Part shown: positions 15,794 through 16,927 of the stretch, one piece after another
Position numbering within the stretch: position 1 is the first letter of the stretch
Layout of the letters: the number at the start of each line of letters is the position of its first letter
DNA from: Pseudomonadota bacterium
GTDB taxonomy: Bacteria > Pseudomonadota > Gammaproteobacteria > Burkholderiales > Burkholderiaceae_C
Assembly: GCA_021848345.1 (NCBI GenBank)
Contig: JAJZUV010000010.1
Coordinates: forward strand, 29,417-93,416
Length of the DNA: 64,000 nt
Reading direction: 5' to 3'
Translations under genes and position numbers: made by a program
The notes under the pieces: generated by a model
The model's input: only the letters and a program-made list of their open reading frames with translations
Databases searched by the model: none
What the model was told of the DNA's origin: nothing

Positions 15794-15928
15794 GCATCCG
15801 GATACGCATGGATTGCGACACAATCCGGATTTTCCCCATGCCTCGGACCCGGAGCCCCCGTTAGGGTTTGCACCACGCTTCGGCCCGGGGGTCGAAGCCC
15901 GCTCCTTCCCGCGACTGCCGGACGCCGC

Positions 15929-16927
15929 ATGCCCCAGACCTTTCGCAAGACCGACAACGGACGCCAGGCCCTGAGCACCCGCCAGCCCCCGCTGAGCCGG
16001 CCCGTGCGCAACCTGCTTCTGCTCATCGACGGCCAGCGCAGCGATGAAGCGCTGCTGTCCATGCTCAGTTCCCCCGATCTCGGGCCGGGCGCCTTCGCGC
16101 AACTGCTCGAGCTGGGTCTGATCGAAGCGGTCACCGACGGCGCACCTTCCGGCGCACCCTCCGGCGCGGGCCCCGGCGACGCGGCCCCCCCACCTGCCGA
16201 CGCCGGCCCGGCCGCGACGCGGACCCCGCCGCCTCCCGACGAGCCCGAACAGGCGCAGCCGGCCGAAGCCCCCGGCGCCGCGCAAGGAAGGCGTCCCTCC
16301 GCCTTCGCGCGCCTGAGCCAGGGCATGCGGTCCATGCTGCAGGCCCAGCAGGAATCCCCCCGCGAGGTCTCGGCCGGCCTGGCCGAGGTCATCAAGTGCG
16401 CGGCGGTGGGAGACGCCGAATTCTTCGCCTGGCTGGAAAGCCAGCTCGATGCCCTGCGCGCGCGCGAATCCAACGCGGTGGCGCACGCGGTGCAGCGCTT
16501 CCCCGAGTTGCGCGCGCAGATCGAATCCCAGGACCGCAAGCTCCAGCGCGCGCCCTCGCCGCTGAGCTTCGGCACCCGTCTGGGCGGGGTGATCGAATCC
16601 CTCGTGGGCTACGGACAGTACCTGCACGGCGAGACGGTCGGGCTGGGCATGTGGCTGAGCACCGCGCTGGGGGAAGACCTCGGGGTGCAAAGCCCCGCCA
16701 GCGCCGCGCGACTGCGCGACGTGCTGGTACGCGCCGGCCTGCCCACGCGCCTGCCGCGGGTCGCCGCGGCGCGTTGGCTGGAATTGCTGCCGGTGGACCG
16801 CGACGGTCCGCAAGGCATGCTCGAGCTCGTGCTGCTGGAGGAGGTCGGTCGCCCCCAGGTGCGCCGCGTGCCTCCCAGCGCGGTGCTCGAGGCGCTGGAC
16901 AAGGCCGGAGCGCTCAGCAGCGGCTGA
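15929..16927 (+). CDS. Fusion of a helical N-domain with a degenerate 3-dehydroquinate synthase C-terminal domain
   Basis: 332 residues. Residues 1-70 (RKTDNGRQALSTRQPPLSRP, RNLLLLIDGQRSDEALLSML) resemble a small winged-helix-like domain seen in other Burkholderiales proteins; 71-125 is a Pro/Ala linker. From about 143 to the end the chain follows AroB: PREVSAGLAEVIK, GDAEFFAWLESQLDAL, GYGQYLHGETVGLGM, VLVRAGLPTRLP. The Rossmann NAD-binding half of AroB is absent. Of the metal ligands, Glu153 and His233 remain, but the GHTFGH stretch has become GTRLGG, so the third histidine and nearby active-site residues are gone. It is therefore not a dehydroquinate synthase; a structural or ligand-binding role is inferred. 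Confidence 0.75.
   Translation: MPQTFRKTDNGRQALSTRQPPLSRPVRNLLLLIDGQRSDEALLSMLSSPDLGPGAFAQLLELGLIEAVTDGAPSGAPSGAGPGDAAPPPADAGPAATRTPPPPDEPEQAQPAEAPGAAQGRRPSAFARLSQGMRSMLQAQQESPREVSAGLAEVIKCAAVGDAEFFAWLESQLDALRARESNAVAHAVQRFPELRAQIESQDRKLQRAPSPLSFGTRLGGVIESLVGYGQYLHGETVGLGMWLSTALGEDLGVQSPASAARLRDVLVRAGLPTRLPRVAAARWLELLPVDRDGPQGMLELVLLEEVGRPQVRRVPPSAVLEALDKAGALSSG

Follow-up and report, generated by a model that had tools for sequence, protein, structure and literature searches.

Locus and gene architecture

The window, a 64,000-nucleotide stretch of DNA, carries on its forward strand a fusion gene whose product joins a winged-helix-like domain to a counterpart of the C-terminal domain of AroB, the 3-dehydroquinate synthase (DHQS). 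The gene comprises the following features.

15929..16927, + strand: complete fusion gene, 332 aa, winged helix - linker - AroB-like C-terminal domain (open reading frame and orthologous fusions in the genus)
15929..16132, + strand: N-terminal winged-helix-like domain, residues 1-68, from an uncurated burkholderial module family (AlphaFold2 model, fold comparison, family search)
16133..16300, + strand: Pro/Ala-rich linker, residues 69-124, mostly predicted to be disordered, variable in length and fast evolving (pLDDT, alignment, dN/dS)
16349..16918, + strand: AroB (3-dehydroquinate synthase) C-terminal-like domain, residues 141-330 (Pfam, aroB profile, PDB, AlphaFold2 model)
16385..16387, + strand: E153, equivalent of the DHQS zinc-ligand Glu, kept in 19/20 fusions (alignment)
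16397..16399, + strand: C157, a lineage-specific, near-invariant Cys in 19/20 fusions, His or Tyr in AroB (alignment)
16571..16588, + strand: GTRLGG, residues 215-220, in place of the GHTFGH motif; the zinc-ligand His is lost in all fusions (alignment)
16625..16627, + strand: H233 of the LHGE motif, equivalent of a DHQS zinc-ligand His, kept in 20/20 fusions (alignment)

The start methionine is invariant across 19 aligned fusion proteins. A preliminary description of the sequence had claimed that the N-terminal half of AroB is replaced by a winged-helix-like domain and a linker, and both the AlphaFold2 model and the fold comparison agree with this, as residues 1-140 consist of the winged helix, the linker and one helix and the Rossmann NAD-binding domain is absent.

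In the subclade of the window the fusion gene sits between an upstream SDR gene and a downstream threonine-aldolase-like gene, beyond which an L-serine ammonia-lyase gene and a D-amino-acid-dehydrogenase-like gene follow. The SDR and threonine-aldolase-like neighbours are kept only within this subclade and differ in the other, so that the context assigns no pathway; no neighbour was conserved between the main fusion clades and no link to aro genes was found in the context. A 10-bp palindrome, AATCCGGATT, is located at 15822-15831 in a block upstream of the fusion gene that is conserved among close relatives, and the 17 bp of the block that include it recur nowhere else in the genome at fewer than three mismatches. 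The block is at most suggestive of an operator or promoter element.

Homology and predicted fold of the AroB-like half

The claimed homology to the C-terminal domain of AroB was confirmed by Pfam and PDB matches far beyond chance. Pfam DHQS_C (PF24621, cut-off 27.6 bits) matched residues 150-290 with 92.7 bits (E=2.6e-26), and 3-dehydroquinate synthases in the PDB matched residues 131-311 down to E=2.9e-31, with identities of up to about 36% to solved AroB structures. Positions 162-342 (of 344) of the aroB profile TIGR01357 aligned with residues 144-322 at 87.9 bits, which does not reach the equivalog cut-off of 305 bits, and the search with this profile gave no match before residue 144. The AlphaFold2 model had a mean pLDDT of 81, with values above 90 for most of residues 141-330. 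Comparison of a structure prediction with AroB, which had been proposed as a check, also supported the assignment: the model matched AroB crystal structures with Z about 25, and superposition on 6lk2 gave Z 25.8 and rmsd 2.1 for 183 residues. A weak Pfam SPX match (17.3 bits, cut-off 27.8) and matches to PHROG were taken as chance, and an Rfam search led to no match.

Catalytic and metal positions

For the residue comparison, 20 fusion domains were aligned with 83 AroB domains. We take E194, K197 and H287 of the A. nidulans DHQS to be the equivalents of E153, K156 and H233, and K250, R264, N268, H271, H275 and K356 to be the other positions concerned. Six of these nine positions with a catalytic or metal role have been lost in almost all fusion copies. 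The K250 equivalent is Arg, the R264 equivalent Pro or Val, and the N268 equivalent Ser, Asp or Glu in 20/20 fusions each; the equivalent of the zinc ligand H271, the first His ligand and part of GHTFGH, is His in 0/20, that of H275 is lost in 17/20 and kept in three, and that of K356 is lost in 20/20. E153 (19/20), H233 (20/20) and K156 (17/20) are kept, leaving the zinc-ligand triad (Glu, His, His) incomplete with its Glu and second His only. The alignment thus agrees with the preliminary description, which had reported GTRLGG at the GHTFGH site, the loss of a zinc-ligand His together with neighbouring catalytic residues, and the retention of E153 and H233. Its term 'non-enzymatic' holds, as judged by sequence, for dehydroquinate synthase chemistry, an activity that is effectively excluded, but is too broad for any other activity. 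A split AroB that pairs with a separately encoded NAD half is unlikely because the catalytic residues of the C-terminal half itself are gone.

Of 39 AroB positions with at least 95% conservation, 18 are retained by 90% or more of the fusions; most of these are glycines, leucines or acidic residues. Residues that are fixed or near-invariant specifically in the fusions include C157, R195, R203, R207, Q254, W283 and P288, with R195 invariant and R207 near-invariant; C157 is predicted to lie on the same helix as E153, one turn further on. A diverged copy in one genome (G013, L022) is without E153, K156 and C157 together and has kept H233, so that the putative pocket is evidently not essential in every case. 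The assembly of this genome contains a run of N within the fusion linker.

The winged-helix module and its family

The prediction for residues 1-68 is a compact unit with the order beta-helix-helix-helix-helix-beta (pLDDT 90). Fold comparison gave Z of about 7-8 to winged-helix domains, with GATOR1/KICSTOR subunits, the 39-kDa RNA polymerase III polypeptide and PriA as neighbours, and a Foldseek search with the module found no match under E=0.3 (best E=0.3). The model indicates a 'winged-helix-like' arrangement and nothing more specific. The sequence of the winged helix is not conspicuously basic and so gives no clear sign of DNA binding. Residues 75-121 are largely predicted to be disordered, most of them with pLDDT below 50.

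A profile of the module detected homologues in 180 of 250 family genomes and 108 of 141 genera. The window gene carries the signature KTxxG...R...LLLxxDG...LGLI and matched the profile, of which it is itself a part, with E=2.7e-28; independently of the profile, a standalone homologue used as single-sequence query retrieved it with E=4.5e-6. Usual members of about 150-400 aa consist of the winged helix, a Pro/Ala-rich linker and a short helical C-terminal domain (LGLxKGY...ExC), which is absent from the fusion and replaced by the AroB-like domain. The N-terminal module and the type of flexible linker are common to both, whereas the AroB-derived replacement of the C-terminal domain is found in Thiomonas only. 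One family member (L114) carries a REC (response-regulator) domain. Pfam yielded no curated family for the standalone proteins, and neither did NCBIfam for the module. The burkholderial family as a whole (L099-L118, L150-L157, L166-L207) is widespread and uncurated, with C-terminal domains that differ, and the fusion draws attention to a widespread, unnamed winged-helix family in which the C-terminal domain has been exchanged.

Distribution among genomes

A search for orthologues with the same domain swap, also proposed earlier, was positive for 21 of 28 Thiomonas genomes. The proteins share 50-94% identity, the same start and the same domain border, and their linkers are highly variable in length. 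A separate AroB match was detected in nearly all carriers (19/21), and the canonical Thiomonas AroBs examined retain the GHTFGH motif. The fusion was not detected in the other 7 of the 28 genomes, several of which are incomplete, and in two genomes (G007, G010) its N- and C-terminal parts are on separate contigs. Among 250 family genomes it was present in four, all Thiomonas, and absent from the 246 sampled genomes of other genera (141 genera sampled); five others with a match at the same threshold matched over the AroB C-domain only. Plasmid and phage searches led to partial matches of AroB type only, none of them covering 80% of the query. In one genome (G014, L102) there is a diverged second copy of the fusion along with a third, truncated N-terminal copy, beside a duplicated 643-aa ORF, which is suggestive of a duplication driven by insertion sequences.

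In the assembly of the window (G000) a canonical aroB was not found. The aroB of the closest relative has no counterpart there, nor has the region around it over a length of at least about 14 kb, and a 9-kb search for this region, which had no positive control, was empty. As these surroundings are missing too, an assembly gap in the form of a missing contig is the likely explanation and not a true loss of aroB; for the same reason we rejected the idea that aroB was lost from this genome with the fusion as its replacement. Annotation pipelines could mislabel the fusion as aroB, for example in such a case, where the contig with the true gene is missing.

Selection and origin

In pairwise comparisons the AroB-like half had a dN/dS of 0.02-0.29, and the matching domain of canonical AroB, compared in the same genome pairs or in close relatives of these, one of 0.11-0.33; values for the winged helix were 0.05-0.50 and for the linker up to 1.55, all of them simple Nei-Gojobori estimates that are adequate for this contrast. 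The AroB-like half is under strong purifying selection, and an inactive domain that is conserved as strictly as canonical AroB must serve another job.

This bears on the simplest objection, namely that an ordinary pseudogene or an assembly artefact is at hand, in which a broken aroB fragment is read through into an adjoining gene. The absence of the gene from some genomes of the genus and the repetitive linker, which breaks some assemblies (G007, G010), would fit such an explanation, but the C-domain dN/dS, the identical fusion with its start and border in 21 genomes at 50-94% identity, and its occurrence in independently assembled records, for example an orthologous fusion on a scaffold of Thiomonas sp. 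FB-6, make it scarcely credible. The preliminary description had named a rearrangement error as the finding that would speak against it; with the fusion in 21/28 Thiomonas genomes and under purifying selection, a decaying fragment or a rearrangement artefact is ruled out.

In the tree the AroB-like halves of the fusions form one clade (support 100/100), whose stem is 1.79 changes per site long and which groups with the AroB sequences of the genus itself (support 90/79). A derivation from the genus's own aroB is therefore favoured, although placements outside the genus AroB were not rejected (AU p=0.157). As members of the winged-helix family usually carry a different helical C-terminal domain, a domain swap is the likely origin of the fusion. 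In the simplest history, a duplicate of the lineage's own aroB would have lost its N-terminal half to a winged-helix gene, so that the AroB C-domain took the place of the usual C-terminal domain in a protein of winged helix, Pro/Ala linker and helical domain. The swapped half would then have changed fast, losing dehydroquinate synthase chemistry, before strict conservation set in.

Possible function

We consider it fairly probable (roughly 0.65) that the protein is a genus-restricted pseudoenzyme, in which a swapped, non-catalytic AroB C-domain is maintained by purifying selection for a regulatory or scaffolding role. This role we infer from the anatomy, as a strictly conserved but remodelled enzyme half that is linked flexibly to a winged helix would suit a regulator or a scaffold. 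A ligand or protein partner may bind to the AroB-derived half where its pocket has been remodelled, and the winged helix on its flexible linker would relay this through contact with protein or DNA; the analysis revealed neither a ligand nor a partner or target. A more specific and tentative version, to which we would give low odds, is a sensor regulator whose putative site of E153, C157 and H233 with R195 and R207 would recognise a metal or an anionic metabolite from the shikimate region, thereby switching the winged helix.

The coexistence with a separate AroB in 19 of the 21 carriers, together with the AroB fold and the many structural positions kept, would also be expected if the protein was a regulatory subunit that pairs through its AroB-like half with AroB, or with a partner of AroB in the shikimate pathway, and modulates it. 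However, AroB is present and the fusion undetected in four genomes of 91-95% completeness (G008, G009, G017, G018), so that AroB does not seem to need the fusion, and the missing context link to aro genes also argues against a subunit, which we regard as unlikely. Unlikely as well is a neofunctionalised enzyme or a redox or metal protein, with E153, C157, H233 and the new arginines as another active or metal site. E153 and H233 are equivalents of two of the three zinc ligands, C157 would be placed one turn after E153 in 19/20 copies at a position of His or Tyr in AroB, and the sole copy without E153 is also without C157; yet K156 is variable, the LHGE motif may be kept for structural reasons, and canonical NAD chemistry is not possible since the Rossmann domain is gone. 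The regulatory or scaffolding pseudoenzyme is the reading we prefer.

Relation to known systems

Compared to AroB, the fusion has the C-terminal fold in common and has kept E153 and H233, but it is without the Rossmann/NAD domain and, in nearly every copy, without six of the nine residues for catalysis or metal binding in this half. It clearly exemplifies in bacteria how a domain swap can turn an essential metabolic enzyme into a non-catalytic paralogue, and the canonical AroB as starting point, the product and intermediate residue changes are all visible in one genus.

Apparently inactive relatives of shikimate-pathway enzymes are also known from fungi. The activator QUTA combines a Zn2Cys6 domain with DHQS and EPSPS domains, and Hawkins and colleagues reportedly proposed its descent from the DHQS-EPSPS half of AROM. 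The fungal quinate regulators are apparently catalytically dead relatives of the AROM polypeptide, with QutR/GaaX resembling its C-terminal three domains, and recognition of the inducer by the inactive enzyme fold is the stated working hypothesis for the latter (PMC10512348, PMC6528562). The earlier claim that no DHQS-derived pseudoenzyme had been described is therefore too strong, as these AROM-derived regulators precede the present protein; a search of the available literature revealed no DHQS pseudoenzyme of the kind of the Thiomonas fusion, and the apparently new feature is a bacterial example based on the AroB C-terminal domain alone. Both the fungal regulators and the fusion carry apparently dead shikimate-pathway enzyme domains, as judged for the fusion by its sequence. 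QutR/GaaX are eukaryotic and contain shikimate kinase, dehydroquinase and shikimate dehydrogenase domains, whereas the Thiomonas fusion is bacterial and combines a lone AroB C-domain with a winged helix. The Thiomonas protein is thus a bacterial, single-domain version of an evolutionary theme known from fungi.
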